A stretch of DNA of 28,841 nt from Saccoglossus kowalevskii (taxonomy: Eukaryota; Hemichordata; Enteropneusta; Harrimaniidae), in contig NW_003116949.1 in assembly GCF_000003605.2 (NCBI RefSeq), forward strand, positions 449,218 to 478,058, written 5' to 3'. The notes below the pieces were generated by a model that worked only from the letters and a program-made list of their open reading frames with translations, was not told where the DNA came from and did not search any database. A program made the translations under genes and the position numbers. Shown here piece after piece: positions 2,289 to 27,960 of this stretch. Within the stretch, counting starts at the first letter, position 1. Each line of letters begins with the position of its first letter.

Positions 2289-3791
2289 TTATTCATTGTT
2301 ATTTTTGGATAGAAGAAAAATCTTTTCCCAGGACTGAAAACATTGAAGGTTATTTTTAAATAATATGCGTTTTGCATATTTGTCTATACTTATAGTATCA
2401 TGTTTCATGTGCCTATAAACACTGTAACGATGGTCTGCCTCCCGTCTGTGCAGGATGATAACATCATCACATTGAGCGATTCGTAAATATCCGAGAGCAT
2501 CTACAAAAAACTCTCGATGAGCAAATCTTTCAAACGTTAAATCAAACCCGACCTTTCGAACTGCCTCAGTCTTTGCCATGAAGAAGTTTGTAACCATGTC
2601 TTTCAGTTTACAATTTGGAAATTCCTTGAGTGTTTTAATTGTTGTAGTTCTTTTCATGATACATCCACTGTCTTTTCCTTTGGCGTACTCAACATGAGAC
2701 CATGCGTCCTTTGTTATAGTCTCAGTGACTACTCCTTTATGTAGTATGAGTCCAGCCACTAGGTCTAGCTCAGCTGTAGGGGATTCCAGTTTCTCTACAA
2801 AACGTTCTAGGATGGTGTCACTGGTAAAAACGTAATCATCATCAACCCATAGAAAGTACTTTGTGCGCACCTGACTGACCAATAAATTCTTTCCTGCATT
2901 ATAACCTTCTAAAAACGGCATCAGAAAATGTTTAACATTGTTTCCATCAAGTTTTTGTTTCTTACAAGAATCATCGGCTATTATTATTTTTATGTTGGGA
3001 TAGAATGTTCTGACACTTGAAATAAGGCGCTTAACACACTCATATCGTTCAAATGTCTTGGATACAATAGTGACTTTGCCACTGATGTTATTATAAGGTC
3101 CTGGATCATAAAGTCTGGGTACATGACTTCTCTGGATCACAATATTAATGACGATATGAAAATTATGCATGGAAACGTCAATGTAATCTCTCTGCCTTAT
3201 ATGGTGTTGCTGACCTGTGTATATTAAGTGTGAGAGGGCGCTATTTATTTGGTCAATATTTTCTGTCTGCATTGAAATCTGACCACTGTTATTGCCTTCT
3301 ATATGCAGTAAATCTGTCATTGTGAAAGGCTCTACATAAATGTGTCCTAATGAATTTCTGGAAGTTAGTGTTATTCTCAAGTGTTTACTTGCTTTCAGCA
3401 CAGAGTCTACTTCGATACCAACAACACGAACGGAGCTTAGAGGCTCGACAGTTATTCCAGATCCCAGGTATCGTATAGGGGACATAGCTGGACACAGTGT
3501 CATTGGTTCAGCCATTTTGTTTTCTTGTCTCTCCCATTCCATATATTCTCTTTTCTGTCTGTGGCGAGTGTTCATGTCAAGAGACCTAATAGTTGGTTCT
3601 AGACATGAACATTTGCTGCCTTGCTCGAATTCCATATTCTGTTTTAGACTGTACATAGTTATATTTGATTTAAAGTTCTTCATCACTGGTAACATTTCTG
3701 GAATCGACACCGGTTTATATAAAATGATAAAATTCAATCCAGTCAGACAGAGTACAATTACACGTAAGTAATTACCCATGCGCATAGTCAT
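2289..3791 (-). CDS. B4GALNT1-like: Beta-1,4-N-acetylgalactosaminyltransferase-like (GT12), gene 1
   Basis: Predicted 500-residue Golgi type II membrane glycosyltransferase, likely transferring GalNAc from UDP-GalNAc to a glycan acceptor. Seen: a short N-terminal cytosolic tail, one hydrophobic anchor (about residues 8-26), then a charged stem (QKREYMEWERQENK, about 79-92). SPIRYLGSGITVEPL follows at about 104-118. The catalytic GT-A-like part starts near 238 (KVTIVSKTFERYECVKRLI), has ADDS at 273-276 and the metal-binding DDD in FLWVDDDYVF at 317-319. It ends with NFFMAKTEAVRKVGF and FAHREFFVDALG. Length fits B4GALNT1/2 (about 500-560 residues). The start is the first ATG after a splice acceptor (AG at 3807-3808), 15 nt away as in genes 2 and 3. 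It is the most diverged intact copy: it has DDDY where the others have DDDF, and differs most at residues 130-200. GT12 membership is firm by motif; the acceptor is unknown. Confidence 0.9.
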   Translation of the reverse strand: MTMRMGNYLRVIVLCLTGLNFIILYKPVSIPEMLPVMKNFKSNITMYSLKQNMEFEQGSKCSCLEPTIRSLDMNTRHRQKREYMEWERQENKMAEPMTLCPAMSPIRYLGSGITVEPLSSVRVVGIEVDSVLKASKHLRITLTSRNSLGHIYVEPFTMTDLLHIEGNNSGQISMQTENIDQINSALSHLIYTGQQHHIRQRDYIDVSMHNFHIVINIVIQRSHVPRLYDPGPYNNISGKVTIVSKTFERYECVKRLISSVRTFYPNIKIIIADDSCKKQKLDGNNVKHFLMPFLEGYNAGKNLLVSQVRTKYFLWVDDDYVFTSDTILERFVEKLESPTAELDLVAGLILHKGVVTETITKDAWSHVEYAKGKDSGCIMKRTTTIKTLKEFPNCKLKDMVTNFFMAKTEAVRKVGFDLTFERFAHREFFVDALGYLRIAQCDDVIILHRREADHRYSVYRHMKHDTISIDKYAKRILFKNNLQCFQSWEKIFLLSKNNNE

Positions 3792-3806
3792 GGTATTAGG
3801 AGAGGT

Positions 3807-4867
3807 CTGGAGAAATAGAAAAACTGATTAATGTCAAAATATGGCAACAAGTATACACTACATCTTTGTTGTATATTGTTTATTTCTATCTATCAATAAT
3901 AACATGTGTTTTTATTATAACCCCATCGGTGTTAGTATTTATTCACATGGAGAGTTTGAAACACTTTAAGAACTATCGTGATCTTCAACCTAAGTTCAGT
4001 CAATATTGTGTTTGATTCATTGACGTTGGAACAGGTTTATAAGCTTTTGTTTGACTTTGACCTTATTATATACAAAAATACAATACGCACCATACTACTG
4101 CATTCTTTGTTTATGATTAAATAAATTTATATTAAATAATATATTAGCATATCATGGTTTTCTTTCAAAAATTTACCAATGCCTGTGTATTTTGAGTTGT
4201 TTAAATATGAAAATGAATGATACATGCGACGCAGTATTTTGGAAAGTGTGGGACATTTTGTCATCATATTTTGAAAGCTTAATTTGCAGCATTGCTAGTG
4301 TACCACAAAACTCATATAGACGCATGGAGACAAGTACGAAATAGATATTTAAAATCGGTTCTTTAAACACCAGTACGTAGATCATTTAGATCAAAACTGC
4401 ATTTTATGCACTAAATTATTCCCATCGATGCCTGAGACATTTACATTGATCGACCAGTCATATAATACCAGTTCGTGGATTACGTAAATTCGCATTGACG
4501 ATTAATTGGTACGCAATGACAGTGGGGCTAACGCAATCAAGAACGGACAGTTAACCAAGTATGCTGCATTTGATTTCAAATTTCTGATCAACTCGAAGGT
4601 ACCATTCTTTGTTCTATTTCTAGTACTGTTTCGTTGGATGGAGTTGTTATATATAAAATACAAATACCGTTGAGTGACAGATATGAAATCAACTGCCAGG
4701 ACAAGGTTTTATGTAAGCTGGGAATTAAATATAGCTAAAATTATCTCTTCCTTGGTTTCCACTGTATAATCACAAAACGTAGGCACCAGAAACCGATTCG
4801 ATTTTTTCACTTTGTATGTTTAGAACGATTTAAAATCGTTTTGCTAAAATATCACAAAAGGCCTTAC
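3807..4867 (-). other. Predicted 5'-UTR intron of gene 1
   Basis: On the minus strand a donor reads ATACCAG|GTAAGG (GT at 4867-4866) and the acceptor reads TTCTATTTCTCCAG (AG at 3808-3807), giving about 1061 bp. The exon after it has 15 nt of leader (3806-3792) and then the start codon. The donor context TTTTCATTC...ACCAG|GTAAGG is nearly the same as in the gene 2 locus. Intron sequence from about 4190 to 4867 is recognisably homologous to 26082-26640 in inverted orientation. No transcript evidence is available. Confidence 0.65.
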
Positions 4868-5490
4868 CTGGTATACTGAATGAAAACTCTATTTCTTTAA
4901 CCAGTTATGCACGTTGTTGACGTGTTTCAAAATACTACAATTACAGGCAACATCGATCGTCACGCTGATCACTTTCTAGTTCACGAAATATAATCCTCGT
5001 ACAGTTGTGATTCAATCAATTGCTAGGTAATGCGCACAGCGCGGTAATGCGTTCAATTGTGACAGAAACTCCAGTGAACTTTGCTTCACACTCTGTATAC
5101 TGTATACTATTAGTGAATATACAGTTCTAGGACGTGTGTTTTTGGTCGCACCCTGTCCCTGTTTTGATTGAAACAGTATAGGAAAGACAATGGGTAAGCC
5201 AACAATCACACCTTGCAAAGTTGCAAAAAGCGTGTCCAAAATGTTTAAATTATGACACAACATGGCACAGAAAGCAAACGGTAGTTGAGATATCGTTGAA
5301 AACTCTGCCACGCTGTTTTCTCCGTCTAATTGAGTAATGCAAGAAAGTATATGATACAATGGACGCAATTATATAATGCGTCGTCCCGTTTTTCCGATGT
5401 TGCGTTCTTTAGTTCTACGAAGAACTTGAAATACAAGCATATGGACGCTTCTCAGCAAATACAATTCACAAAGCCTTTAATATATTTCTG
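4868..5490 (-). other. Presumed first-exon and promoter region of gene 1, with membrane-protein-like ORF
   Basis: On the minus strand this block ends at the gene 1 donor and should hold its non-coding first exon. It is homologous to 12012-12636 (plus) and, more weakly, to the regions upstream of genes 2 and 3. An open frame of about 118 codons (5368-5012) carries a hydrophobic stretch (GVIVGLPIVFPILF) and TKNTRPRTVYSLIVYS. The same frame in the 12 kb copy keeps FSTIS, TFAFY and KNTRPRTVYSLI with an apparent 9-nt indel and several silent changes, which hints that the block was once coding. I do not recognise the protein. The ORF has no ATG supported by context, and its relation to gene 1 transcription is unknown. 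Confidence 0.4.
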
Positions 5491-6067
5491 GGATTAACTT
5501 CGAATTACGTAATGTTTGCATAATTAATGGTAGTAGTGGGTAGTACATCACCTCGGCCACAATTTTCACATTTCTCCGTTCTAGTATTACGCAATAAAAT
5601 ATGGTTGTACCGAGAACACACCAAAATACGCATGAAGGCAGTACAGCTGTCAAATCGAGCGAGGCGTACCATACTGCTTGAGTGCATATTTTGCGGCATT
5701 CTTTTGATAACCTTTGATATGCTTGCAATAATAATTTAATGAGAGATGTCGTCCTGAAATGGCATTGAAAAACTGTTTGCGCTGTGCATATGTTTGCGTT
5801 CTGTGACAAGATTATATTGTCGTCACCCTATGGCGATTCTTTGAACGATTTAGGCAAAAGTAATTTTTCGAATACTACGTTAACAAGCCGCGTTAATATT
5901 AATGGACGAGTAGCGGAGGTCGATGCCATTTCATACTGCTTGATTGCACACTGTCCGGTATTGTTATACATCTCTGGTCGTAGCAGCAAACCAATTAGAG
6001 ATAACATTGAGCTAAAGAAAACTATTTCCAGCCACATTGATCTCGCGTTGTATTTTATACTTTTCAA
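5477..6067 (-). pseudogene. Broken multi-pass membrane-protein-like ORF upstream of gene 1
   Basis: Reading minus from 6067 to 5477 gives about 197 codons in one frame, interrupted by a single TAG near 5828. Before the stop there is a hydrophobic segment (MWLEIVFFSSMLSLIGLLL) and a basic loop. After it come an amphipathic stretch (SLIKLLLQAYQRLSKE), a second hydrophobic segment (VLPSCVFWCVLGTTIFYC), and PLLPLIM. The frame ends at LIPEIY-stop. This layout resembles part of a multi-pass receptor or channel, and an invertebrate gustatory-receptor-like protein is one guess, but no diagnostic motif is seen. No good ATG precedes the first hydrophobic segment. It could be the 5' part of the gene whose 3' part lies at 5368-5012, or chance open sequence. 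Confidence 0.3.
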
Positions 6068-6434
6068 TATTGCATTTTAAATCAATATTTTGGTTGAACA
6101 TCCCACAGTTTGTAAAAAAAATAGTTTTATATGTCAATATAACACAAGATTAAAACTTCAATTTACATAAAATTAAAACAACAACCCTTATACAAATTGG
6201 ATTATAGAATTATTCCCAAAAGAAAGTTTTTTTTCCTCTTGATCTACCTAAAAAATGGTCTGCAATAAGGAGTATGTTTTTTCTGGAATCAATGTATTGT
6301 TAAGAATTTGCATTCTTTGGATGTCTAATAAATATCTAAAATTTGCCAAGGAAGTGGGATGGCATGGTGCTTTATAGAAACATATAATCGATACGATACA
6401 ACATCAGTTGCATTATGTGTGTGTTGCTGGTTAT

Positions 6435-6604
6435 TTATTCAATTGAAAAAATTGTTTCCCAGGACTGAAAGCACTGAAGATTATTTTTAAATGATATACG
6501 TTTTGCATATTGTGCTATAATTTGTTTCATATGACCCATAACACTATACCAATGTGTATATTTTCGTCTATGCAGGGTGATGACATCGTCACATTGAGCG
6601 ATTC
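6435..6604 (-). pseudogene. C-terminal stub of a GT12 glycosyltransferase copy
   Basis: The minus strand encodes IAQCDDVITLHRRK, then YAKRISFKNNLQCFQSWE, and an in-frame TAA at 6437-6435. This matches about the last 55 residues of genes 1-3. The frame is intact and the stop sits near the family position, yet homology ends abruptly at about 6604. Sequence beyond it bears no relation to the enzyme and leads into a tandem repeat. It is therefore a truncated relic whose 5' nine-tenths were deleted or replaced. CDDV and the terminal SWE are kept, so decay is modest, but no catalytic core remains. Confidence 0.85.
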
Positions 6605-6660
6605 CAAAAAACAGCCCACAAGCAGCCTATCGGCTGATATAGCTCCGCTGTTAGCAATTC

Positions 6661-7050
6661 ACATTTCAATTAAATAACAGAAGATATCATTAGAAAATGA
6701 ACAATATGTAGATTTGCTGTTTTTAACAAGAATTCAAAAATATCACTTTTTACCAAAAATGACAAAAATTATCATCAAAATTAGATAATTGAAGATATCA
6801 CCACGAAATTAACAAATCTGGAGGTCCACATGTAGTACCTATAATATGTAATATAAAAGCAATCGGACTTGTAGTTTTTAACAAGAAGTCACAAAATATC
6901 ACATTTTACTAAAAATCACAAAAATATTCATCAAAACTAGAGAATTGAAGACATCATCACGAAATAACCACATCTGAGAGAGGTACACATGTAGTAACTA
7001 TATATGTAATATCAAAGCAATTGGCCTTGCAGCTTTTAACAAGAAGTATA
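6661..7050. repeat. ~150-160 bp imperfect tandem repeat, two full and two partial units
   Basis: Two neighbouring units (about 6713-6864 and 6865-7024) align along their length. Each has TTTTTAACAAGAA near the start, ATCATCAAAA or ATCAAAACTAG, GAAGA-ATCA-CACGAAAT, a CACATGTAGTA block and AAGCAAT at the end. Partial units flank them at 6661-6712 and 7025-7050. Units differ by many substitutions and small indels, so the array is old. It starts close to the breakpoint of the truncated glycosyltransferase stub. It could be the body of a SINE- or MITE-like element. Confidence 0.65.
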
Positions 7051-7227
7051 GGAATTATCTTTGCCTGGCATCAACAAATTTTAGTTCCATTGGGGCATAA
7101 GAAATCTGATAGATTCATTTCAAAAAAGTTAATTGTTAGCAACAATGGCAATCAACTTAGAAACATGGAAAAACGTGTCATTTTTTTACGGGGACTATGG
7201 AATCTAAGGAAATTAATAAACTGATTA

Positions 7228-7758
7228 CACGACGTGCTTGTAATATGCCCTCGTAATTTGTCTGCAGTAGTATTTAATGCTATTACATGGAACTTTGTAA
7301 TATACGTAGGTTTCACTGTGTAATATTCACAAAAAAATGCAACAGGGGCGTATAAATTGAATTTGTAAATTTCGGTATTAGCACAGATCACCATGTGACA
7401 GAAGAAAACCACGACAATGAAATGGATGCTTCCAAATGCAACCATGGAAACCAGGTCCATGAATGTATGTGAGGCATATAAATTATCTGCAAATGTTACT
7501 GTGCAGATTAAACAGCCATTCCACAATGAGCGTGAAATAAAGCTCAGTGGAATCTCCACATTCCTGCAATATTTAAACCTCTGTGAAAGCAACACCTGGA
7601 TATTGCATGTATCACAACTGACACAGTAAGGATTATATCTACTGCAGTGAAAGCTAATGTGATTTTTTTCGATTGTCATGTTTAATACAAATTTTGAAGC
7701 ACGTCGTCTAAAACGGGATTGCAGTAGATAATCAAACCGTTTTCATTCAAATTACCAG
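7228..7758 (+). other. Presumed promoter and non-coding first exon of gene 2
   Basis: The stretch ends at ATTACCAG|GTAAGG, a strong donor, and is homologous to two other blocks: 15640-16365 upstream of gene 3 and, inverted, 4868-5200 upstream of gene 1. Matching landmarks are CACTGTGTAATATTCAC, CACAATGAGCGTGAAATAAAG, GGATTATATCTACT, TTTCGATTGTCATG and GTTTTCATTC. The gene-sense strand is full of stops, so it is not coding in that sense. The opposite strand holds an open frame of 175 codons (7679-7152). The transcription start cannot be placed. Confidence 0.5.
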
Positions 7759-9146
7759 GTAAGGTCATATTATACTATATAAATGTAGTAGGTAATCACA
7801 TGCAATTAATCAGACGTTTCGTAACTTATCTTCATGATAAATATTAATAGAAAGAATGAGAGATGGTGGAAAAATATACAAAATTGTAATCATAGTAAAT
7901 GACGTTCTTTCCAAATCAGAAAATATTTTGATTTATATGCATCTATATTCGCATTTGATTTATATGCAACAACACAAACCCAAGAAATAGTATTATGCAA
8001 CCTAGAGTATTGTGGCCTGATAAAATGGTAAATTGCAAATGTTCAGTAAAGCGATCCACTAGCTGATGCAGTGTCAAATCAATACAAAATATCCCGCATT
8101 TACTACATGTAATATACTAAACCACAATATTGACGAGACAGCTGATTCTACTATCGCTTGCAACAGTAACGTTATGACCAGAAACACAAGTGGAATCCAC
8201 AATAAAGGGCATGTGTCACACCTCAGAGGATCACAAGGAATAGAGCCATACATTTTACATAAATTACACAACCAATTATGAAATTATCTTAGAATATCCT
8301 TAGAGTTGCTTACCAGTCATTTACATTATACTGGACGTCAAAACATTTATCACAGAAAATGGCACAACGTTGCAAATGATCAATGCAGCAAAACCACTAT
8401 TCATCTATTAATATGCAAATTAGTTAGCATTATTGTTCTAATTCAGGCATCACAAATCATCAATAAAATAAGTACTACTCAGTGAGCACTCTTCAGATTC
8501 CTCCACTTTTTGTGGAGATTTTAGAAATAATATATATGAACTCAAAATTAACATTTGTGCTACACATTCTGACGAACTGAACCGAATGTTAAAATGAACA
8601 ACATATTTCGGTGAAAATACTATTGGTGAAAATATTTAAAAAAAAGTGAAGCAAAATCACTGAGATTATTATATGTCCCATGTTTGATTTATGTTGCATG
8701 TTACACTGTACCATCTACAAGGCAATGGTGGAACCAGTATTATATTTAATCCCCTGGTATTCACCAATTTTAAAGGTAAAATTGTAACTTTGTGATATTT
8801 TAACAATACTGTCAAATAATTCTAAAAGTTAAAATATTAAAGTTGGCACGCCGGCAATGTTACATACAAGGGAATCTCACCTATAGCCATTTATCAGCTA
8901 ATATAAATCTCTATAATATATTTCTTGATAGTCCCACAAGTATAAATAACAGAATATTTGTTATCTCTTAGCGAATTTTAATTTAATAATTATATATAAG
9001 ATACAGTTTTATGCTATTGTTTGATAATTTCTTACAGTTAATACTTGCAAGAAATAACAAAATATTTCTTTTGCATTTGAGCATATTTATAAAATAAGAA
9101 TTCAATATTGTGCATTTTGACATGATACAGTTTGTTTTATTTCCAG
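7759..9146 (+). other. Predicted 5'-UTR intron of gene 2
   Basis: Donor ACCAG|GTAAGG at 7759 and acceptor TTTGTTTTATTTCCAG (AG 9145-9146) bound an intron of about 1388 bp. The acceptor is nearly identical to that of gene 3. Parts of the intron (for example 8031-8056, TTGCAAATGTTCAGTAAAGCG) match the gene 3 intron near 16690-16712. A minus-strand frame at 8271-8074 has a hydrophobic run (PLLWIPLVFLVITLLLQ) but nothing else supports it as a gene. Confidence 0.65.
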
Positions 9147-9161
9147 TCATATGGTATTGCC

Positions 9162-10661
9162 ATGCATATGAGAAATGTCTGTGTGTTTGGCCTCTGCTTG
9201 AGTGGCATTTATTTGGTCATACTATTTAAACCGTTAACCTTCTCATCGGAAAATATACCAGTGTTGAAAATCTTTAAATCAAGCTTAACCTTGAACGATC
9301 TAAAGAAGAAGATGGAATTCGATCAAAGTAGGAAATGTTCATGTCCGGAGCCAGTCATTGGGCCCCTTGACATGGACACTCGTCAGAGACAGAAAAGAGA
9401 ATATTTGGAATGGGAAAGACAAGAAAACAAAATGGCCGCAGAACCAATAACACTATGTCCAGCTATGTCTCCGATACGATACCTGGGATCCGGAATAACT
9501 GTGGAGCCTCTACACGCTGTTCGCCTTGTGGGAATTGAGGTAGATTCTACGTTACAAATGAATGAAGAGGTTAGAGTAACGCTTACTTCCAGACATTCTC
9601 TAGGTCACATTTATATCGAACTTTGCAAAATAACAGATTCACTGCACATAGAGGGCAATAAAAGCGGTCACGTTTCAATACAAACAGGAAATATGGACGA
9701 TATGAATAGCGCCCTCTCACATCTAATCTACAATAGTAAATATCATCATATAAGGCAGAGAGATTACATTGACGTTTCCATGCATAATTTTCATATCGTC
9801 ATTAATATTCTGATCCAGAGAAGTCATGTACCCAGACTTTATGATCCAGGACCTTATAATGACATCAGTGGCAAAGTCACTGTTGTATCCAAGACATTTG
9901 AACGATATGAATGTGTTAAGAGACTTATTTCAAGTGTCAACACATTCTATCCGAACATAAACATAATAATTGCAGATGATTCTCGGAAAAAACAAAAACT
10001 TGATGGAAACAATTTGAAACATTTTCTGATGCCTTTTTTAGAAGGTTATAATGCAGGAAAGAATTTATTGGTCAGTCAGGTGCGCACAAAGTACTTCCTA
10101 TGGGTTGATGACGATTTTGTTTTTACCAATGATACCATCTCGGAACGCTTTGTAGAGAAGCTGGAATCCTCTACAGCTGAGTTAGACTTAGTGGCTGGAC
10201 TCATACTACATAAAGAAAAAGTTGTTGAAGATACAATTGAAGACCCATGGACTGAAGCTCATTATGCCAAAGGAAACGGTAGTGGTTGTCTCATTAGAAG
10301 AAGAACTCCAGTTGTAACACTCAAAGAATTTCCGAATTGTAAACTGAAAGACATGGTTATAAACTTCTTCATGGCAAAGACTGAGGCAGTTCGAAAGGTG
10401 GGGTTTGATTTAACGTTTGAAAGATTTGCCCATCGAGAGTTTTTTGTAGATGCCCTGGGCTATTTACGAATCGCTCAATGTGACGATGTCATCATCCTGC
10501 ACAGACGAGAAAATACACATTCGTATAGTGTCACTAGGCATATGAAACACGACAGGGAAGGTGTAGCACGTTATGCAAAAAGTATATTATTTAAAAATAA
10601 TCTCCAGTGCTTTCAGTCCTGGGAAAAGATTTTTGTTCGATCGATGGATAATACTGAATAA
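9162..10661 (+). CDS. B4GALNT1-like: Beta-1,4-N-acetylgalactosaminyltransferase-like (GT12), gene 2
   Basis: Predicted 499-residue type II Golgi glycosyltransferase. Seen: a short tail, an anchor at about residues 6-22 (VCVFGLCLSGIYLVILF), and a stem with the cysteine pair KCSC (C59, C61) and QKREYLEWERQENK (77-90). SPIRYLGSGITVEPL is at 103-117 and the catalytic domain begins about 238. ADDS is at 271-274, the metal-binding DDD of FLWVDDDFVF at 316-318, NFFMAKTEAVRKVGF at 401-415 and FAHREFF at 422-428. The ATG at 9162 was chosen because the intron acceptor ends at 9146; upstream in-frame codons (TTG at 9132) are intronic. Compared with gene 3 it is almost identical over residues 128-263 but different at 351-370. 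The family transfers GalNAc from UDP-GalNAc; the acceptor here is unknown. Confidence 0.92.
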   Translation: MHMRNVCVFGLCLSGIYLVILFKPLTFSSENIPVLKIFKSSLTLNDLKKKMEFDQSRKCSCPEPVIGPLDMDTRQRQKREYLEWERQENKMAAEPITLCPAMSPIRYLGSGITVEPLHAVRLVGIEVDSTLQMNEEVRVTLTSRHSLGHIYIELCKITDSLHIEGNKSGHVSIQTGNMDDMNSALSHLIYNSKYHHIRQRDYIDVSMHNFHIVINILIQRSHVPRLYDPGPYNDISGKVTVVSKTFERYECVKRLISSVNTFYPNINIIIADDSRKKQKLDGNNLKHFLMPFLEGYNAGKNLLVSQVRTKYFLWVDDDFVFTNDTISERFVEKLESSTAELDLVAGLILHKEKVVEDTIEDPWTEAHYAKGNGSGCLIRRRTPVVTLKEFPNCKLKDMVINFFMAKTEAVRKVGFDLTFERFAHREFFVDALGYLRIAQCDDVIILHRRENTHSYSVTRHMKHDREGVARYAKSILFKNNLQCFQSWEKIFVRSMDNTE

Positions 10662-12011: not shown

Positions 12012-12636
12012 TCCAGAATATTATGGGCAGTGCTAGAAAATAGTTTTGTGTGAAGCATCCATACGCTTGCATTGTAAATTACTCTTCGAACATTAACATT
12101 AAGTAACATCGGGAAAACAAGAAAATGAAAAGGTTAAACACTTAATATGCGAATAGATTGAGATCTCATTGAGAGTCACAAAACTATTTTGTTCCCCTGA
12201 AATTGCGCATAATATAATGTTCATTTCGAATTTCATAATTCGTTACATAGCTCATTTGAACAGTAAATGGAGAAAAATAAGTATCGCGGCGCGGTTTTCA
12301 ACGATATCTCGGTTGACATTTGCTTTCTACAGCATATTGCCTCATATTTTTGATTGTTTGAAAATGTTCTAGGTCAATGCGATTGTTAGGGTACTTAGTT
12401 TCTTGTCTATATTGTTTCGATCAAAGCTGGGACAGTACTTGACTAAAAACACTCGTCCTAGAACTGTATATTCACTGATATTATACAGTCACAATTATTC
12501 ACGACATTTTGGGTTTGAAGCAAAGTTCATTGGAATTGCCTTCACAGCAAACCACCTACGCGCATTACCTAGCAATAGATTGAACCACAACTGTTCAGTC
12601 AGGATTATATCAAGTGAAGTGAACGCAACAATTTGA
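12012..12636 (+). pseudogene. Orphan copy of the glycosyltransferase upstream block
   Basis: This block aligns by eye with the minus strand of 5490-4990 upstream of gene 1. Shared landmarks in order are CATCCATA-GCTTG, ACATCGG-AAAAC, TTTTCAACGATATCTC, TTTGCTTTC, CACTCGTCCTAGAACTG, TATATTCACT and GCGCATTACCTAGCAAT. The gene 1 frame continues here with conserved FSTIS and KNTRPRTVYSLI but is broken by TAG near 12370. No donor site and no glycosyltransferase exon follow in this orientation before the gene 3 locus. It is best read as the head of a further gene copy whose body has been lost. Confidence 0.6.
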
Positions 12637-15639: not shown

Positions 15640-16365
15640 ACGAACGTTTTACTGTGTAATATTCACAACAAATCAGATTTAACTTGTAAATACCATTTTA
15701 TTTGCACATATCGCACCATGACACCATGATCTATGGTTGTACATGTGCCATATAAACCATCTGCACATATCAATGTGCAGAGTATATAGCCATACCACAA
15801 TAAGTGTGAAATAAAGTTCAGAACAATAAGTGTGAAATAAAGTTCAGAACAATAAGTGTGAAATAAAGTTCAGAACAATAAGTGTGAAATAAAAATCAGA
15901 ACAATAAGTGTGAAATAAATTTCAGAACAATAAGTGTGAAATAAAGTTCAGAACAATAAGTGTGAAATAAAGTTCAGAACAATAAGTGTGAAACAAAGTT
16001 CAGAACAATTAGTGTGAAATAAAGTTCAGAACAATAAGTGTGAAATAAAGTTCAGAACAATAAGTGTGAAATAAAGTTCAGAACAATAAGTGTGAAATAA
16101 AGTGCAGAACAATAAATGTGAAATAAAGTGCAGAACAATAAGTGTGAAATAAAGTTCAGAACAATAAGTGTGAAATAAAGTTGAGAGGTATATATATATA
16201 TTGTATGACAGCTGATACAGTACGGATTATATCTATTATAGTGAAAACTGATGTGATCAGTATCGTTTTTTTTCTGTTACTCTCGATTGTCATGCTTAAT
16301 AAAAATTGTGAAGCACATCATCGAAAACGAGATTGCAGTTCATAATCACACTGTTTTCATATCAG
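15640..16365 (+). other. Presumed promoter and non-coding first exon of gene 3, enlarged by a minisatellite
   Basis: Homologous to 7228-7758 upstream of gene 2: ACTGTGTAATATTCACAA, CATATAAA-CATCTGCA, GGATTATATCTA, CGATTGTCATG, TTGTGAAGCAC and GTTTTCAT match in order. It ends at ATATCAG|GTAAGG (GT 16366-16367). It is about 200 bp longer than its counterpart because one short segment has become the 26-bp tandem array at 15799-16186. No long open frame on the gene strand. Confidence 0.5.
15799..16186. repeat. 26-bp minisatellite, 15 head-to-tail units
   Basis: Fourteen full units and one partial unit repeat with a strict 26-bp period and no indels. Unit starts run 15799, 15825, 15851 and so on to 16163. 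Each unit begins AATAAGTGTGAAATAAAG. Variants are single-base changes: unit 4 (AAATCAG), unit 5 (ATTTCAG), unit 8 (AACAAAG), unit 9 (AATTAGTG), units 12 and 13 (GTGCAG). Nearly every unit carries the hexamer AATAAA. A single-copy counterpart (ACAATGAGCGTGAAATAAAG) lies at about 7522-7541 in the gene 2 locus, so the array arose after the gene 2/gene 3 duplication. Confidence 0.97.
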
Positions 16366-17326
16366 GTAAGGTAAACTATAATTTTAAGAATATTGTAATC
16401 ATTCAATATAATGAGACATTTTCGACAAAGTAGTTTTTCTCAATAATAGATATGAATAGAGTGAGATATGGTGGGAATATAGAACAAACGACTAGAATAA
16501 TAGAATATGACAAATGCATTTATTAATTTCATTAAGTTTTCCTAGTTCTAAGTCTGAATATAATTTGTTCTTCTACGTGTCTACATTGCGTCTTGCTGCC
16601 GCTAACAACTCAACCCAAAGAAATGGGTATTTCTGAAACGCTATGCCCCTACAATTAAACGTATTGTTGCTGGGTAAATTCTGTGCCTAGTATATTGCAA
16701 ATGTTCAGCAAAGCGCCCCCCCCCCAAGCCGACGCACCGTGGATCAGCGTGACAATTACATACTAGGGAAGTTAGATTGTTCACACCTGACCAAATATTA
16801 GCAAAAGTACAAGGTATTTCAGTTCCAAAATAATACATATATATATTTCTATATTGCCATCACGTGTTAATACCACATAAGACACAGTTTTTATGGTATT
16901 GTTTTACAATAATACTTGCAAAACAGGTTGTTTCTTTTACATTTAGGTATAACTATTTAACAAGTCTCCCATTTTGTTCAAAAATTTACACATAAGAAAA
17001 TACTATGAAATTAATTTCAATTAAATTCAATTTATTCAATTAAATTAAATTCAATTCAATTCAATTAAATTCAATTAAATTCAGATAATGAACTATTAAA
17101 CTCGGGTAATAGTTAAATTAAGCTCAAATCAGAAATGTATGACAGGTATACACTAAATATGTTACGAATATATGCAATTCATATAAATCTACACATATAT
17201 GATCGATTTCAATATGTCCATACATTGGAATATACAAAGGAACAAGGTATTCAGCAATTATGTGAAAATATATTGTGATATTGTGATGCATGAAGTTTGA
17301 CATTATGCAGTCTTTTTTATTTCCAG
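16366..17326 (+). other. Predicted 5'-UTR intron of gene 3
   Basis: Donor TATCAG|GTAAGG at 16366 and acceptor TCTTTTTTATTTCCAG (AG 17325-17326) give about 961 bp. It aligns in part with the gene 2 intron but is shorter. It contains a C-run (about 16707-16716) and the ATTCA-type microsatellite near the acceptor side. Confidence 0.65.
17006..17086. repeat. AT-rich microsatellite (ATTCA/ATTAA)n
   Basis: Runs of TTCAATTAAATTCAATT-type sequence with imperfect 5-bp and 10-bp periodicity, inside the predicted intron of gene 3. It has no counterpart in the gene 2 intron, so it expanded after duplication. Confidence 0.85.
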
Positions 17327-17341
17327 TCATATCATATTGCC

Positions 17342-18850
17342 ATGCATATACGTACAAGAGATGTCATACTCTGTGTGGTTGGCCTCTTTTTGAGTAGCAT
17401 TCATTTGGTCATACTATTTAAACCGTTCACCTCCTCGTCGCCAAATATACCAGTTTTGAAAAACTTTAAATCAATCTTAACCATGAACGATCTAAAGGAG
17501 AAGATGGAATTCGATCAAAGTAGGAAATGTTCATGTCCGGAGCCAGTCATTGGGCCCCTTGACATGAACAATCGTCAGAGACAGAAAAGGGAATATTTGG
17601 AATGGGAAAGACAAGAAAACAAAATGGCGGAACCAATAACACTGTGTTCAGCTATGTCCCCAATACGATACCTGGGATCTGGAATAACTGTGGAGCCTCT
17701 ACACGTTGTTCGCCTTGTGGGAATTGAGGTAGATTCTACGTTACAAATGAATAAAGAGGTTAGAGTAACGCTTACTTCCAGACATTCTCTAGGTCACATT
17801 TATATCGAACTTTGCAAAATAACAGATTCACTGCACATAGAGGGCAATAAAAGTGGTCACGTTTCAATACAAACAGGAAATATGGACGATATGAATAGCG
17901 CCCTCTCACATCTAATCTACAATAGTAAATATCATCATATAAGGCAGAGAGATTACATTGACGTTTCCATGCATAATTTTCATATCGTCATTAATATTCT
18001 GATCCAGAGAAGTCATGTACCCAGACTTTATGATCCAGGACCTTATAATGACATCAGTGGGAAAGTCACTGTTGTATCCAAGACATTTGAACGGTATGAA
18101 TGTGTTAAGAGACTTATTTCAAGTGTCAACACATTCTATCCCAACGTAACAATACTAGTTGCAGATGATTCTCGGGAAAAACAAAAACTTGATGGAAACA
18201 ATTTGAAACATTTTCTGATGCCTTTTTTAGAAGGTTATAATGCAGGAAAGAATTTATTGGTCAGTCAGGTGCGCACAAAGTACTTCCTATGGGTTGATGA
18301 CGATTTTGTTTTTACCAATGATACCATCTTGGAACGCTTTGTAGAGAAGCTGGAATCCTCTACAGCTGAGTTAGACTTAGTGGCTGGACTCATATTACAT
18401 CACGGTAATGTTGTTGAAGACTTTAGTGAAAAAGCATGGACCGACGTTGCGTATGCTAGAGGAAACGGCAGTGGGTGTCTCATTAGAAGAAGAACTCCAG
18501 TTGTAACACTCAAAGAATTTCCGAATTGTAAACTGAAAGACATGGTTATAAATTTCTTCATGGCAAAGACAGAGGCAGTTCGAAAGGTCGGGTTTGATTT
18601 AACGTTTGAAAGATTTGCTCATCGAGAGTTTTTTGTAGATGCTCTCGGTTTTTTACGAATCGCTCAATGTGATGATGTCATCATCCTGCACAGACGAGAA
18701 AATTCACATCGGTATAGTGTTACTAGGTATATGAAACGTGACAGACAAGGTGTTACACGATATGCAAAACGTATACTGTTTAAAAATAATCTTCAGTGCT
18801 TTCAGTCCTGGGAAAAGATTTTTGTTCAAGCCAAGAACAATATTAAATAA
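17342..18850 (+). CDS. B4GALNT1-like: Beta-1,4-N-acetylgalactosaminyltransferase-like (GT12), gene 3
   Basis: Predicted 502-residue type II Golgi glycosyltransferase and the closest relative of gene 2. Seen: a basic N-terminal tail (MHIRTRD), an anchor at about residues 8-26, and a stem with KCSC (C63, C65 region) and QKREYLEWERQENK. SPIRYLGSGITVEPL is conserved. ADDS is at 274-277 and the metal-binding DDD in FLWVDDDFVF at 319-321; NFFMAKTEAVRKVGF and FAHREFFVDALGF follow. The ATG at 17342 lies 15 nt after the acceptor; upstream in-frame codons are intronic. Differences from gene 2 cluster in the N-terminal 50 residues, in the loop LHHGNVVEDFSEKAW (about 353-367), and near the C-terminus. 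No frameshift or lost catalytic residue is seen. GT12 membership is firm; donor and acceptor are inferred from the family. Confidence 0.92.
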   Translation: MHIRTRDVILCVVGLFLSSIHLVILFKPFTSSSPNIPVLKNFKSILTMNDLKEKMEFDQSRKCSCPEPVIGPLDMNNRQRQKREYLEWERQENKMAEPITLCSAMSPIRYLGSGITVEPLHVVRLVGIEVDSTLQMNKEVRVTLTSRHSLGHIYIELCKITDSLHIEGNKSGHVSIQTGNMDDMNSALSHLIYNSKYHHIRQRDYIDVSMHNFHIVINILIQRSHVPRLYDPGPYNDISGKVTVVSKTFERYECVKRLISSVNTFYPNVTILVADDSREKQKLDGNNLKHFLMPFLEGYNAGKNLLVSQVRTKYFLWVDDDFVFTNDTILERFVEKLESSTAELDLVAGLILHHGNVVEDFSEKAWTDVAYARGNGSGCLIRRRTPVVTLKEFPNCKLKDMVINFFMAKTEAVRKVGFDLTFERFAHREFFVDALGFLRIAQCDDVIILHRRENSHRYSVTRYMKRDRQGVTRYAKRILFKNNLQCFQSWEKIFVQAKNNIK

Positions 18851-19978: not shown

Positions 19979-20148
19979 TTAGCCCGAGCTCAGCCTTAAC
20001 ACAGACGTATTGGCCCGTGTTAATGATCTAGACAGGGTCGTAAAAACGGATCAGATTTAGCTCGTGCTTATCGTTTTTTAACCCATGCTAATCATTCGCG
20101 CACGTTTTCTTTTCGGGCTAACGTTTTTCACCTCTTAGCTTGTGCTAA
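19979..20148. repeat. Cluster of five near-palindromic 14-mers (TTAGCYCGTGCTAA-like)
   Basis: Five copies lie at 19979 (TTAGCCCGAGCTCA), 20010 (TTGGCCCGTGTTAA), 20057 (TTAGCTCGTGCTTA), 20078 (TTAACCCATGCTAA) and 20135 (TTAGCTTGTGCTAA). A half copy (CGGGCTAAC) is near 20114. The consensus is close to its own reverse complement, TTAGCACGGGCTAA. Spacing is irregular (31, 47, 21 and 57 bp). This could be the eroded end of a transposable element or a small palindromic satellite. Confidence 0.6.
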
Positions 20149-20379
20149 GGAGCTGTGCGCGATTGCAATTGACACATACTCGGAGCACCAAACTAGATTG
20201 ATCTTTGCACGTAATTTGAAATTGTGACGAGTAAAACACACAAACATAGCTAACATTTTTTTTATTTACTATTTACTATTTAAGATATGATCAACCTGAG
20301 CGCTGGGAGTTGAAAACGTATAGGTCTTTGCGTTTTACACAATAGTATTTATGATATATGTAGCCTTCAATTTTGTGGT

Positions 20380-22560
20380 CAATCACCTCTCTAAACACAG
20401 TCGAATGTCTCGCATAACGTGAATACAATGTATGTGACAAACGAACTATTTAAACATGTCAGGCGTCGGTAAATTAACATAGATGAATTTCTGCATGTGC
20501 AATTATTAATTTCTCTCCCGAAATATCAGGCAATCTTGGGTAGACAGTTCAACTCGACAGTTGAGGTATAGTGTGACCAGTGCAAGGTGTTGGTGTTTTG
20601 TGACCATCCTCTGATGATTATTTTCTGCAGAAGTTGTAATATATCATAATTTTCTGTAGCATCACGAATCTGGGCCAGACGCCCTTCTCTGATGAGAAGG
20701 AAACTAATTATTAAAGATTTTTATTTGTACTTGCAGTTTTTGATTGGTGTGTATACTTTTTACTTTTGCAATATACAATATGAATTTCATAGTTCTGTTG
20801 TTGTATCATCTTACATTTCATTTACGTTGTTTAAGTGCTTTGTGGTGTAGCTTCATGGTTTATGATCACTATAAACAATGGTGTGGTCACCATTTCTGAT
20901 GAAAAACTATAGCAAACATTTCCTTCTTGATTTGAGCATTAACGCTTTACTGGCATGGACGACCTTCCTACATTGAAATAGTGTCAAGTCTAAGTCGACT
21001 ACTATCACACTGTATTGCAAGGTCTTTATTTGCATTGTAGTACGTTTTAGAATAGGCGCTAAATCAATCCTAGATATAAGTTCCATTCCCACGGGGTATT
21101 AGAATGTCAGCAGTCAAGTGGCTTCATTACATAAGTCATAAATTGACTGAGGTAGTTGCACATCTTCAGTAATTCAGTAGGCATTTATTGTATTGTCTTA
21201 AACTTAATCAGAGTCAACTTTGAGGCCTTCTGATGCACATCTCTAAAGCTTGATGTAATGCTTTCTGATTTATCTCAGACATATCTTTAGACATTGAAAC
21301 CAAAAGTGAGTCTGAGCCAACAGTATCTGCAATATGGAGTAATGGATGTAGTTAACAGACAGACTAGATTCTTCATCGAGGACTAAATGCCAGTATGCAG
21401 ATGACAGATCATTGTTTTTAAAAATGTTAGACTTTGCTAAAGCAGGTAAGGTTTAGGCCAGGTTTTGTCCATGGGGGTTACAGCTCCTAAATTCACAAGA
21501 CGGCCAAATTCAGCTTTAAGTTTACTTCAAAATGACACAGCTCTTGGTCGACACGGCAAAGTGACGGGGCTTGCTGCAGAGTTCACATTGATGTGTACTT
21601 CTCCCTCAAACTTTCTCAGGGCAGTATCATCAAACACGTCAGAGTAATTAGCAATTATATTATCTTTGCTCTTGCTTTTAACTGCGTTGTTTGAACTTTC
21701 CCTATGTAATGACAATAAGTTCATTTGTTCAGTAGTACGAAGACCAAGTAGTGGAGTAAGAATATCTCTTACTATGACGAATTCTACAGAAAACTTTCTC
21801 CCGGCGTAAGATTGTGAATATTGTGAATTAACAGACTTAAATTGCTTTGGTAGGCTTGATTTGTCTATCTCCAACGTATCTAGCAGTATCCACAATCCAA
21901 AAGAAATTTCAGAGGTCATTAGTGTTATAGTCGCAGCCAAGTACAGTAAGTGCCCCACTGGATTTTCTAGAAAAATTATGTCGTTCCTTACAGGCTGAGC
22001 AGGTTTTACACCATGTTGGATATTTAAATTTGTCAGGAACATGTTTATAACAACATACATTTACAGCCAATGTCTCTAGGTTTGCTTTAGGCTTTGAGTA
22101 TTTCTTTTTAGTCTTCTTTCTGGGATCACAGAACTTGACTTCACCTTGTGTACTTCATGTTGACCTCCCATTCCCTTCAATTGTGAAGCATTTGAGGCAG
22201 GGGATTCGTCGCCTTTGAGTTTTTAGCTTGCGTTGTTGTCGTTGCTTAGAACTCAATTCTCGCCCGTGCGCAGGTGACGATCCCCTAGCTTTAACTTCAG
22301 ACTAAAATATACATCAATATTTTCACAGGCGTCTTTGACAGGGGTTTCTTTTGTTGGATAGGTATCTCTTATAAATTTTATTGATTTTTTTCCAATGAAG
22401 TGCGTATTGAATTTCTTGATAACTGTACCAACTAAATTTATGTCTTCATCAGCGCCATAATCAAAATTGACTTTTTTTGTTGGCATATGATGTCGGGTAA
22501 AGACTTTCACTGTCGCTTCTCTGTTTCAAAATTTCCAATTTTGTCTGCCAATCTTTGAAT
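20380..22560 (-). mobile_element. Ty3/Gypsy-type LTR retrotransposon relic (gag-pol, minus strand)
   Basis: Reading the minus strand, decayed domains follow in Gypsy order. A gag-like frame (22510-22253) has VIKKFNTHFIGKKSIKF and ETPVKDACENIDVYF. A zinc-knuckle-like CKTCSACKERHNF lies near 22000. A protease-to-RT linker with YSDVFDDTALRKFEGEVHI and SPVTLPCR is near 21560-21640. RT pieces include DLSSAYWHLVLDEESS near 21360-21410. RNase H pieces include LAIQCDSSRL near 21000-21030, SKALMLKSRRKCLL near 20910-20950 and VYSDHKP near 20860. The integrase linker RLAQIRDATENYDILQLLQK is near 20620-20690. Stops and frameshifts occur throughout and no LTRs were found. RNase H before integrase supports Ty3/Gypsy over Copia. 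The element is inactive. Confidence 0.8.
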
Positions 22561-22984
22561 AGAATAGTTTTACTTATAAGACAAGTATTGAGATTGTGGA
22601 CCATAGGTGTATGTCTGGCAACAGGGAGATCACGTATTGATGTTTTCTCTGCCCGAAAAACTGGAAAATGTTCATCCTACACACCGCTCGCCAAATGTTT
22701 TTCTAGTAAAGAGCTATGTTACCGATTGACAGCTAGCTTCATTATACTTTATTTCACGGGAATTATATAGTGACAAATGCTGCTGATGGTTGAATGCATT
22801 TTCGTCCTTTACTAAAATTGAAGACGAAATCGGCTGGTTTTCGTAATTAACTCATGGATTTATGGTACCAGTGGTTAATAGTATGTAAATGGATTTAACA
22901 TAATGGCAGACAAATGTAAGTAATATTCCGTACATGTATAGAACTGATGGAAGCAAACTGTAAAGGCGAGCAATCTGTCTGAAG

Positions 22985-25045
22985 TGAAAACGAAACAAAG
23001 CGAGTTAAAATCATCGTGTGTAATTGATTATCTATCGGTCTCTACATCGTTATTTGATAAGTTGTTAAGTTTTTCCATCTCACTCAGAACCCAATCTATT
23101 GATTAAATGCATTTGGTCTTTTGATCGTGCTAGGGAATTTACAGATATATTCTAACTTGAACGAAACATAGCTGGTCTGGATATTATTATAGATGATCCA
23201 GTCTGTAAAATAAATTATGTTGTTAATCTTTTTAATGAAACATGTACAACTGCAGATAAATGCCGTATGTTGGGACGTGCAAGCAAACTGGCTTTAGACA
23301 ACCACCGTGATTTGACCATGTGTGATATTATACCCGGTACAACCGCCGAGTTAGACAACGACTTGTTGACTTGTCGACTTGTTGTGTGAATGAAAATTGC
23401 CGACGTATTACACAACTCAAAATGCGCAAAGCCGATAGTCCAGACGGCGTAACAGGTTATTTTTTCAAAGCACCTGGTGACTATATACCCCAGTATCTTT
23501 GTGACCTTTTCAAGGCTCAAGTCGGTTTGCAGAAAGGCTATTCTACAATTTTAGTGTGCCTTTGTGGATTTCTCACAAGCAGTTGACACCGTCAGCGTCA
23601 AAGTTTATGGTACTATTTGTTTGAAGAATGGCATCAAAGCGAGAATGTTCAGAATGCTATTTATCAGTTGTTCTAATGTCAAAGCACATGTCAAAACTAT
23701 GCATGATCACACCGGACATTTTTATTGCCCATCTTGGTGTAAGACAAGGGTGTATTTTAAGTTCTTTTCTTTCCTTGTTTTCACATACGCATTAATTTTT
23801 GCACTATAAACTCCAGGTCAAAAGTGGAAACAACTGTTACTGGACTTAGTTAAGATATTTTGTTTGTTGTTTTCAGACAATGTAGTTTTATTTTTAGATT
23901 ATGTGTTTGTTTCACAACGATTGTTAAATAGTTTGAGTTATTTTTGTAATTTGTGGAAGTTGAATGTCTATTAATCGAAGACTAAAGTTGTTTTTTTTAA
24001 AACGAGGGGCTGCATTTTAAGTGCACAAAAATGGGTTTATAAGGAGGACAAATGTAGTTTCATATTACATACAAGTAATTAGAGTGTTGTTTTCCACTCA
24101 GTTAAATTGGCCCTGTGCTACTAAATTGATCTATTCAAAAGCACAAGAAAATTGGGACCACTATCTTATAACCACTTCTTGAAAGTAGTTGACACACTAA
24201 ATGGTTCTACCAATATTAACTTATGGGTCTGCAATTCGGGGTTACCACGAATATAAATCAATTGAAAGAGCACAATAGCTTGCATTTATGTGTCTCTCAA
24301 AATGTACCAAACTGTGCAGTACTAGAATATTGTGGGCGTTACAAAATGTTTCTAATAACAGCTTAGAGATGCGCCAAATTATTACGCACTCCCAGGATAA
24401 GGCACCCCAATGAATGTTATTTATCATGTACCACTTGGAGTTGTCTCAGTCGAGAACTGGACCAAACTGAATCACTTATGTTAAACAACTATTATTATCG
24501 TGCTTTATTCCAGCGGATTAGGATGACATGGGTCTAAAATATTAAATTATTAAGAGCTTCGTTTATATTTGGATTGGCATGGTTATATTTCAACTATGGA
24601 TAAACTAGAAAACTATCGAAACGTTAAAATTCGTCTTGAATCCGAACAATATTTATTTTCTGTGTCTGTCTTCACTCACAGGTGTATATTATCGTGTTTT
24701 CTCAGCTCATGGTCTCAAGATAGAAACGGACAGAAAAAATGGTATTGAAAGTGGTGATTGAGTTTATCTTTTATGCAATTACTATGAAATTGATGATGAA
24801 TATCATTTATTATTTGTTCATTTTTTTAGTGAAAATTACATTCCAAGATACTATTTCACATTGCCTTCATATAATAAGTTTGTGGAATTGATGAAAACGT
24901 TTGACAGTAATATACTACTATCCATGGCAGCTTATTTGTATTATTTCTTAAAACTAAGAAAATGAAATTTACAAAAAAACAATATGTTATATTTATTTGT
25001 TTATGTAATCTGTATTTTTGGGCCAAAGGTCATAAACTCCAATAA
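22985..25045 (+). mobile_element. Degenerate LINE (endonuclease, RT and C-terminal remnants)
   Basis: On the plus strand, an endonuclease-end peptide (SSCVIDYLSVSTSLFDKLL) is near 23010-23070. An RT block (MRKADSPDGVTGYFFK) is near 23420-23470, and motif A (FVDFSQAVDTV) is near 23560. KNGIKARMFRMLF is near 23625, VRQGCIL near 23740, and motif C is decayed (LLFSDNVVLFL instead of F-A-D-D). MVLPILTYGSAIRGYHEY lies near 24200. A typical LINE C-terminus (DDEYHLLF, LPSYNKFVELMKTFDSN, MAAYLYYFLKLRK-stop) is near 24790-24965. A 3' tail with TTGGGCCAAAGGTCATAAA ends near 25045. About 10 frame changes and stops are present, with an internal deletion after the first RT block. It is dead. The clade was not determined. 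Confidence 0.85.
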
Positions 25046-25854
25046 CCCAAAAGAGATAATTACAACTGTAGTATACATTCAGAGCGTCGGGGTCAATAGC
25101 ATGTAAAAAACACGGGTAATTGGGAAGCATGAGTTTAGTTTTGAAGATTAGTAATTATGCTATAAGGCCAAAAAAAAAACTTATGTTGCCCTCAAGTCAG
25201 AAAATTGAAAAAAATGGATCGATCGGTCGGATTTTTGTTTTAAACTTAATTTAAAATTTAATAGTTGATCCAGCTTTTCCTGTCACACACACAGCAAACA
25301 TGTTCGCCGTGTTCGTATACAAGTTTTAATATTTGGGCCTATCAACAAAAAAAAAAAAAACGCGACCCGATATTTCATATTTTTCGGGCGGTCGCTGAGG
25401 ACAACAAAACATCTTTTTGGCCTAATTGCTCCACACTTGATTCTATATTTACCACTTTTCAACCTTTGTGGCGCCGTCACCCGTATCTAGGTTTGCAACG
25501 AGATTTATGGTGCAGTTGGCAGTAAAGCAGGTTTTAGTGCATTCTGATCAGATTGTTAAGCGATGACAGATGGGCCAGATATTGTAGAGATTTAGACTCA
25601 GGTGGATCACGTGATTGCTTAGTAGCGGGAAAGTTAAATTCACTCACTGTGTTAACTGATCAGAATTCAGTTCTATCGACAGTCTGTGGATTCTTTACTT
25701 TGTTCAAAAAATTCAGTCGCAACGCTGCCACCATATTTTGATATGTGTATTTTGATGTGTATATAAATAAACTCAATGGTGGTGTGGCGTCTTGCAAGTG
25801 CAACGTTTAACTGGCAGACATCTTAGTAACAACATAGCATTCGTGTAATGGTCA
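25046..25854. other. Intergenic stretch between LINE relic and duplicated gene 1 head
   Basis: No gene is supported. There is an A-run (about 25347-25360) and short open frames with no recognisable content. The part after about 25540 may be an eroded extension of the glycosyltransferase upstream block, but I could not align it with confidence. Confidence 0.4.
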
Positions 25855-26640
25855 CAAATGTCCTAAAACTGCATATTCACTGAAATTATACAACCAAATG
25901 AATTCACCGAAATTATTGTCACAGCTAACCGTCTGTGCGCAATTGTCAAATAAGGATGATACCTAGTAAAGTGGAAATGCATGATACCTGCTGTTACCTG
26001 CAATTGGTACATTTAGTAATTTGGAATACATCAACAAACACACATAAGTGGTTATAGACATTATTTCATTTAATATATCAGGTAAGGTTTTTTGCATTTT
26101 GTGATATTCTAACAACCAATTGTTAAGTCAAATGTTGAATCGGTTCTTGTTGCCTACGTTTAGCAATTATGCAGTGGAAACCGAGGAAGGAGTCATTTTA
26201 GCTATATCCAATTCAAAACCTGGCAGTTGATTTGATTTGATATCTGTCTTTCAATGGTGTTTGTGAAACCGGAGAAATACAACTAGAGATGGAACAAAGA
26301 ATGGCACATCCGAGTTGATCAGTAATCTGAAATCAAATGTAGCATACTTGGTTAACTGTCTGTTCTTGTTTGATTTAGTCCCACTATCATTGCTACCAAT
26401 TAATCATCAATGCGAATCTACGTGAATTCATGAGCTGGTATTATATGACTCATCGATCTATGTAAATGTCACAGGTATCGATATATGAGTTTTGTGAGAC
26501 AACACTAGCTGTAATGCTACATGTTCAGCTTTCTAAATATGGTGACGCAATGACTCACATTTTCAGAAATGCCGCGTCGCATGTATCATTCATTTACATA
26601 TTTAAACTAGTCAAAGTACACAGGGAAAACATTGTCTTAG
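25855..26640 (+). pseudogene. First-exon region and intron start of the broken fourth gene copy
   Basis: The sequence aligns on the plus strand with the minus strand of the gene 1 upstream region and intron. Upstream landmarks are TCCTAAAACTG, TATTCACTGAAATTATAC and CTGTGCGCAATTG. It has a retained donor ATATCAG|GTAAGG (GT 26082-26083). Intron landmarks are TGCCTACGTTT, CAGTGGAAACC-AGGAA, GGCAGTTGATTT, GGAACAAAGAATGG and GTATCATTCATTT (near 26580). This copy therefore derives from gene 1 rather than gene 2 or 3. Its exon 2 is the broken coding sequence at 27376-27960. Confidence 0.75.
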
Positions 26641-27375
26641 TATAGGTGATTTTGTAAAAGTTGGCAAAGAAATGTGACACGCTATTCCTTAATGCAATAT
26701 AAATTTATTGAAATTCATGAAGAATGAATGTAATTAATTGCCTTCTGTGTCTTTCACTGTCAATGTTTTTATGATATTAATAATATATGTCAAATTGTGC
26801 ATTTCTTTGCATATTATAAACTTAAATTAACCTTAGATAGGTAAATACACACGTAAATAATATTTGTATGTGCTATTGCATTTAGCTTAGTGTTGTGTCT
26901 TTTTGGAATTTGTTTGAACATGGTCAGATTATATGGTTACCATAGTGATAATCGCGAAATTTTCGAATTCGTATTTTACAGCTGGATGAATATCTGTACA
27001 TGTTAACCTCGTTTTAAAAACGCATTCACCCTAGCGATGGCACTGTGGAGTCGTGACATTCTGTGCATGGACAATTGAGAGTTCATGATGTCATTGTGTG
27101 GCATAATTATGTCTTTTTTTGAATGGGGGTAGCTAACCCGTACAGCTGGATAATGAAATCTGGGAAAATGCTCTGAGTGATCAACTGATCAAAGGCGACT
27201 GAATAATCTACTCTAATCAACGCCTGGTGACTGACACACATTGCCGGGGTTCCTTCTACTCTGTAATGACGGAGACTACATCAAATAATAACTCTCCATG
27301 CTACAACTGGGTTTACCAACTGTAAATAGCACTGATTTCCATCCATTATTTTATGCCACATATATGTAGAGCTAT
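26641..27375. other. Eroded intron and lost 5' part of the fourth gene copy
   Basis: Only weak resemblance to the gene 1 intron remains. The coding part equivalent to about residues 1-155 is missing. A minus-strand peptide near 27130-27230 (ALIRVDYSVAFDQL) resembles RT motif A of a LINE, so an insertion may have replaced it; this rests on one motif only. Confidence 0.35.
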
Positions 27376-27960
27376 TTACAATAACATATTCACCGCATAT
27401 AGAAGGAAATAACAGTGGCCACGTTTTAATGCAGACTCAAAAACTATTAACCAAATTAATAGCGTCCTCGTACACTACATTAGTTATAGCACAGACAGAT
27501 TATGTTGACGTTTCCATGCTTAATCTCCATATCATATTCCATATCATATTTTTAAAACTCGTGTGCCCACACTGATCAAAAAACTTATAACATCAGCGGG
27601 TAAAGTCCCTCTTATAGCTAAGACATTTGAACGGTATGAATGTGTTAAGAGACATATTCGAAGTGTCAGCACATTCTATCCGAACGCAGCAATAATAATT
27701 GCAGATGATTTTCGTAAAAAAACAAAATCTTGATGGAAACAATTTGAAATATTTCCTGATGCCGTTTTAGAAGATTATAATACTGGAAGGAATATATTGG
27801 TCAGTCAGGTGCGCACACTACTTATTGGTTGTTGATGACGATTTTGTTTTTACCAATGATACCATCTTGGAACGATTTGTAGAGAAGCTGGAGTCTCTGA
27901 CACCTGAGTTAGACCTAATGACTGGAATCATACTGCATATAGGAGTTGTTTCTCTAAACT
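27376..27960 (+). pseudogene. Frameshifted GT12 glycosyltransferase pseudogene (fourth copy)
   Basis: The DNA aligns with gene 1-3 codons for about residues 157-355. Matches include CATATAGAAGG, GACGTTTCCATGC, the exact stretch ACATTTGAACGGTATGAATG, GGTCAGTCAGGTGCGCACA, and the segment encoding VDDDFVFTNDTILERFVEKLES. It carries several frameshifts: a +1 in the A-run near 27716-27723, and a 2-nt loss just before the DDD codons. In-frame stops and deletions affect the part encoding RQRDYID and RSHVPRLYDPGP. The tryptophan before DDD is lost. Homology stops near 27955 and no C-terminus follows. Early residues follow gene 1 (MQTQK... INS), while the DDD segment is closer to gene 3. It is non-functional. 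Confidence 0.9.

Follow-up and report, generated by a model that had tools for sequence, protein, structure and literature searches.

A local birth-and-death cluster of B4GALNT1-like GT12 genes in Saccoglossus kowalevskii

Three intact GT12 genes and three relics in both orientations

The window, by which we mean the whole analysed stretch of 28,841 nucleotides from the Saccoglossus kowalevskii contig NW_003116949.1 (positions 449,218 to 478,058 of the forward strand), contains three intact GT12 (B4GALNT1-like) genes, A, B, and C, together with three relics, D, E, and X, spread in both orientations over about 2.3-28 kb. The stop-to-stop open reading frames (ORFs) of A (2289-3827, - strand), B (9126-10661, + strand), and C (17294-18850, + strand) span 512, 511, and 518 codons, respectively, compared with 148 codons for the longest ORF among 50 mononucleotide shuffles of the window. 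The original prediction had counted three intact genes, one frameshifted copy, one C-terminal stub, and one orphan head in both orientations, and the ORFs, nhmmer, and self-comparison bore out this count. Its broader claim of local birth and death through duplication, with live and dead members in both orientations, is likewise supported by the intact ORFs of A, B, and C and by the relics D, E, and X.

We found D and E with an nhmmer DNA profile built from the coding exons of A, B, and C. The frameshifted coding relic of D (27295-27953, + strand; E = 1.6e-138) covers the middle of the protein only, with some 130-150 residues missing at the N-terminal end and about 145 at the C-terminal end. 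Nine indels within its aligned body have lengths that are not multiples of three, a count that leaves out the gaps at its two ragged ends. D also retains its own 5' region and intron at about 25860-26624, namely a 5' exon/promoter relic with a donor (25860-26081, + strand; donor at 26079), homologous to A and X, and an intron relic (26082-26624, + strand) resembling the A intron (26482-25992 at 71.6% and 26624-26482 at 81.1%). Copy E is a C-terminal stub (6439-6618, - strand; nhmmer E = 8.6e-40), corresponding by tblastn to residues 447-504 of the A ORF, and its 3' flank (6089-6308, - strand) resembles the 3' flanks of B and C (66.8% and 69.9%, respectively). Near the broken end of the stub lies a 156-bp tandem repeat of 2.1 copies (6714-7047). 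The orphan head of the original prediction is present as X (12285-12618, + strand), although we cannot be sure that X was the one meant, as it had been given without coordinates. X is not a protein head but a promoter/exon-1-like 5' segment without a donor. Its positions 12294-12618 (+ strand) are 69% identical to the 5' region of gene A at 4980-5303 (E = 5.4e-34), and the nhmmer profile detected no coding sequence at X.

A common predicted gene structure with a single coding exon

The sequence predicts the same architecture for every intact gene: a noncoding 5' exon ending in CAG/GTAAGG, an intron of 1.0-1.4 kb, and the entire coding region on a single exon. The sequence CAGGTAAGG occurs at five sites in the window compared with 0.09 expected, and four of the five are found at corresponding places 5' of A, B, C, and D, where the alignable 5' regions end. 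In the self-comparison, the fifth site (21443-21451) was not homologous to any of the gene units. The distance from the predicted acceptor to the ATG is 15 nt in all three genes, and none of them has an in-frame Met between the last upstream stop and the predicted ATG. This predicted 5' noncoding exon common to the genes goes beyond the original prediction, as do the signs of gene conversion described below.

In gene A (- strand), a predicted promoter region and noncoding 5' exon together occupy 4868-5303 (donor 4862-4870; homology to X and D), followed by a predicted intron of 1061 nt (3807-4867), partly alignable with the D intron, and by the predicted coding exon for a GT12 protein of 500 residues (2289-3806; ATG at 3791, stop at 2289). 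The corresponding predicted elements of gene B (+ strand) are the 5' exon and promoter region at 7441-7758 (donor at 7756; homology to C and A), an intron of 1388 nt (7759-9146), and a coding exon for 499 residues (9147-10661; ATG at 9162). For gene C (+ strand), they are placed at 15715-16365 (donor at 16363; homology to B), 16366-17326 (961 nt), and 17327-18850 (502 residues; ATG at 17342). All three predicted coding exons are based on the ORF, the match to 9h6j, and the spacing of acceptor and ATG.

The predicted 5' exon/promoter region of C contains a minisatellite at 15797-16186 with 15 copies of a 26-bp unit and 96% matches. Its counterpart in gene B (about 7523-7547) is a single copy, so the minisatellite seems to have grown from such a B-like sequence. 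Four ORFs of 82-196 codons at 5012-6076 and 7152-7742 (both - strand) either overlap the predicted 5' regions of genes A and B or lie a short way upstream of them. They are probably due to chance, and a Pfam scan of these ORFs gave no family above the cut-off.

The three proteins retain the donor-site residues of human B4GALNT1

With phmmer, all three proteins matched the human B4GALNT1 chain 9h6j_A over the luminal domain, with E-values of 1.1e-70 for A, 2.1e-67 for B, and 3.4e-67 for C, and this was the only GT12 chain returned by the structure search with the three proteins. We placed the human residue numbers by hand on the alignment of A with 9h6j_A. The roles of nine substrate and metal residues and six cysteines in human B4GALNT1 are described in the available part of PMC12217166. 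All nine donor/metal residues are kept in each of A, B, and C, comprising the five UDP-GalNAc residues K284, N437, R457, Y501, and R505, which the same part of that source calls conserved in GT12 only, and the four residues R288, D356 and D358 (DxD), and H483. Each protein also has all six disulphide cysteines (80, 82, 412, 429, 476, and 529), where the match of C80 and C82, which lie beyond the phmmer alignment, is by the CxC motif alone. An N-terminal hydrophobic segment is present in all three. The likeness to B4GALNT1 (GM2/GD2 synthase, CAZy GT12) thus extends over the luminal similarity, every donor/metal residue examined, the cysteine pattern, and the N-terminal segment. The 9h6j_A matches and the conserved donor/metal residues support the GT12/B4GALNT-like identity originally assigned to these genes. 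The live genes most likely encode Golgi type II membrane enzymes, each of which would use UDP-GalNAc and Mn2+ through a B4GALNT1-type donor site; both the membrane topology and the activity are predictions from the sequence.

In a Pfam scan of 16 proteins, A, B, and C passed the cut-off for Glycos_transf_2, and the other 13, one of them a piece of D, gave nothing above the cut-off. NCBIfam returned only below-cut-off matches for A, B, and C, the best being TIGR04440. A search for relatives in a virus contig collection with B gave no pattern match, and one in a prokaryote contig collection with alignment A1 gave 88 pattern matches and no relative; both scans say little about animals. Invertebrate B4GALNT1/2-like genes are represented by 32 sequences used in PMC9959560, according to its available part, and A, B, and C probably belong to this group of the same family. 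Among the matches listed in our literature search, as judged by titles and the starts of abstracts, no report described an invertebrate GT12 cluster, which is not proof of absence.

Vertebrate B4GALNT1 genes have many exons, unlike the genes here, with the coding region on one exon and several copies in a cluster. The original remark that vertebrates usually have one or a few GT12 enzymes provides a weak yardstick for this cluster.

Whole DNA units were duplicated

A and D have 5' exon and intron sequence in common. In B and C, the common sequence lies on both the upstream and the downstream side, spaced about 8.19 kb apart. Because flanking, intron, and 5' sequences were duplicated along with the coding exons, duplication copied units of DNA. 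Each unit would consist of a promoter, a noncoding 5' exon, an intron of about 1 kb, and one coding exon of about 1.5 kb, and repeated duplication of this unit at the DNA level, in direct and inverted orientation, probably left the three constrained genes and the three relics. We rejected retroposition as the copying route, as introns and 5' and 3' flanks were copied as well; at most, it may account for the founder having a coding exon free of introns.

Purifying selection and the age of the copies

A, B, and C are under purifying selection. The dN/dS ratios are 0.29 for A/B, 0.315 for A/C, and 0.37 for B/C, and Fisher tests gave p = 1.7e-18 for A/B and p = 3.2e-6 for B/C (gapped codons were dropped from all rate counts). 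The TM/stem part of B/C has a dN/dS of 1.17, a value resting on 3.5 silent and 16.5 nonsynonymous differences. The dS of A/B and A/C is near 0.47 and exceeds 1 in some 40-codon blocks, which places the divergence of A from the other two far back in time. The B/C dS of 0.14 calls for at least one later duplication or homogenisation. The depth of the A split and the degraded state of the relics fit an old cluster with equal copy number in all relatives rather than a lineage-specific expansion, whereas the closeness of B and C speaks against it; we give this alternative a serious chance, somewhat short of even.

Silent sites suggest patchy gene conversion

For silent-site runs, we considered degenerate codons specifying the same amino acid in both genes (365 for A/B, 359 for A/C, and 431 for B/C). 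A and B are silently identical over 50 successive codons of this set (residues 202-255), compared with 80 of 365 differing overall (p = 0.00015). The same test gave p = 0.005 for A/C and p = 0.042 for B/C (0.035 in a three-way version), of which the B/C value fails correction for three pairs. The silent divergence of B/C is also well below that of their flanks, which are only 64-76% identical. Furthermore, copy D is a mosaic. We used the 64 sites at which B and C agree with each other but not with A, and D agrees with one side; D is A-like at 20 of 27 of them in its left part, compared with 12 of 37 in its right part (p = 0.011). These patterns lend moderate support to the view that patchy gene conversion may have kept parts of the copies alike, inverted copies included.

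At least part of the silent patchiness could come from local constraint or uneven mutation. Taken to its full extent, this would mean plain birth and death without conversion, in which the copies diverged independently, the patches reflect constraint or uneven mutation, and the divergent loops described below are relaxed with acceptor choice unchanged. Surface loops commonly evolve fast, the dN/dS in the loops (0.42-0.58) does not exceed 1, and the B/C run is marginal, all of which would fit such a history. However, the long A/B run, the mosaic structure of D, and a B/C silent divergence far below that of the flanks argue against it, and we regard such a plain history as fairly unlikely.

Divergence concentrates in two loops of the catalytic domain

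The catalytic domains differ mainly in two loops, residues 352-386 and 452-472 of A (about 389-419 and 487-513 in human). A and B differ at 31 of 56 loop positions compared with 17 of 221 elsewhere in the catalytic domain (p = 3e-14), A and C at 32 of 56 compared with 20 of 221 (p = 8e-14), and B and C at 17 of 56 compared with 14 of 221 (p = 5e-6); these p values are too small because the loop boundaries were picked after viewing the alignment. We found no positive selection in the loops, in which dN/dS is 0.42-0.58, and silent differences are raised there as well (12 of 37 compared with 24 of 245 for B/C, p = 0.0006; p = 0.03 for A/B; p = 0.0009 for A/C). Since dN/dS stays below 1 and silent differences are raised, the loops may be relaxed or may have been missed by conversion.

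In human B4GALNT1, according to the available part of PMC12217166, residues 495-510 become a helix that covers the active site upon UDP-GalNAc binding, residues around S390 come into contact with the membrane in simulations, and the W491N mutation cuts the activity on lipid substrates without significantly affecting that on sialyllactose. Unlike the human enzyme, in which H483 and Y501 are 18 residues apart, A, B, and C have a spacing of 8, i.e. a stretch shorter by 10 residues and without the LPW membrane motif, so that the hydrophobic membrane-inserting W491 loop is absent. The second membrane loop of B4GALNT1, the hydrophobic F93 loop (LPLPF), falls outside the 9h6j_A alignment; by eye, A, B, and C show no LPLPF string. 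The two divergent loops lie close to where the acceptor side is expected and could make the copies differ in acceptor preference, and the missing W491 loop weakly favours glycoproteins or other non-lipid glycans as acceptors over membrane gangliosides.

The locus as a whole

We are fairly confident that the best explanation of the locus as a whole is a local birth-and-death cluster of GT12 genes with single coding exons, shaped by DNA-level duplication, probable patchy conversion, and loop divergence. As such, it is an ordinary birth-and-death GT12 cluster, in which the pattern of conversion and loop divergence is mildly interesting. The account joining conversion with acceptor diversification is plausible but unproven. 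In its strongest form, conversion between direct and inverted copies would hold the donor site and scaffold alike as the two loops escape, creating a small GalNAc-capping repertoire under one promoter type, which we consider rather doubtful. The role in surface-glycan diversity proposed originally is a guess that the divergence of the loops backs only indirectly. If the loops set acceptor choice, the copies would be a natural set of close enzymes for mapping GT12 acceptor specificity and, if the whole account is true, also a compact example of inverted glycosyltransferase genes converting one another; failing that, the locus is one more local gene family.

Two further alternatives fare worse. 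At least one of the three intact genes could be an unexpressed, recent pseudogene whose frame is still open: the relics D, E, and X are evidence of copies dying at this locus, and the 5' region of C carries a minisatellite. This is unlikely, given that dN/dS is below 0.4 for all three pairs, that the donor residues and cysteines are complete in A, B, and C, and that splice signals are found in all three genes. An assembly artefact from unresolved haplotypes, named as a refuter in the original prediction, or from misjoined copies can yield several similar copies within one short window but is highly improbable here, because haplotypes would be alike throughout, whereas B and C, with coding exons of 92% identity, match at only 213 of 280 and 281 of 441 flank positions (76% and 64%, i.e. 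24-36% different) and hardly align in the intron (forcing an alignment gives matches at 369 of 776 positions, 48%), A and B match at 240 of 500 positions of the 3' flank (48%), and the relics D, E, and X differ in content. A, B, and C are thus not unresolved haplotypes.

The vertebrate UGT1/UGT2 clusters are comparable in the birth and death of clustered glycosyltransferases and in their hypervariable acceptor-side regions, as described in the available part of PMC1885805. According to the same part, conversion is not predominant in those clusters and positively selected sites occur, unlike in the cluster here, where silent sites hint at conversion and positive selection was not found. Beside the GT12 units, two stretches of the window, at 21527-22525 (- strand) and 23215-23809, whose scanned ORF pieces gave no Pfam match above the cut-off, look by eye like retroelement remnants (gypsy-like and LINE-like).
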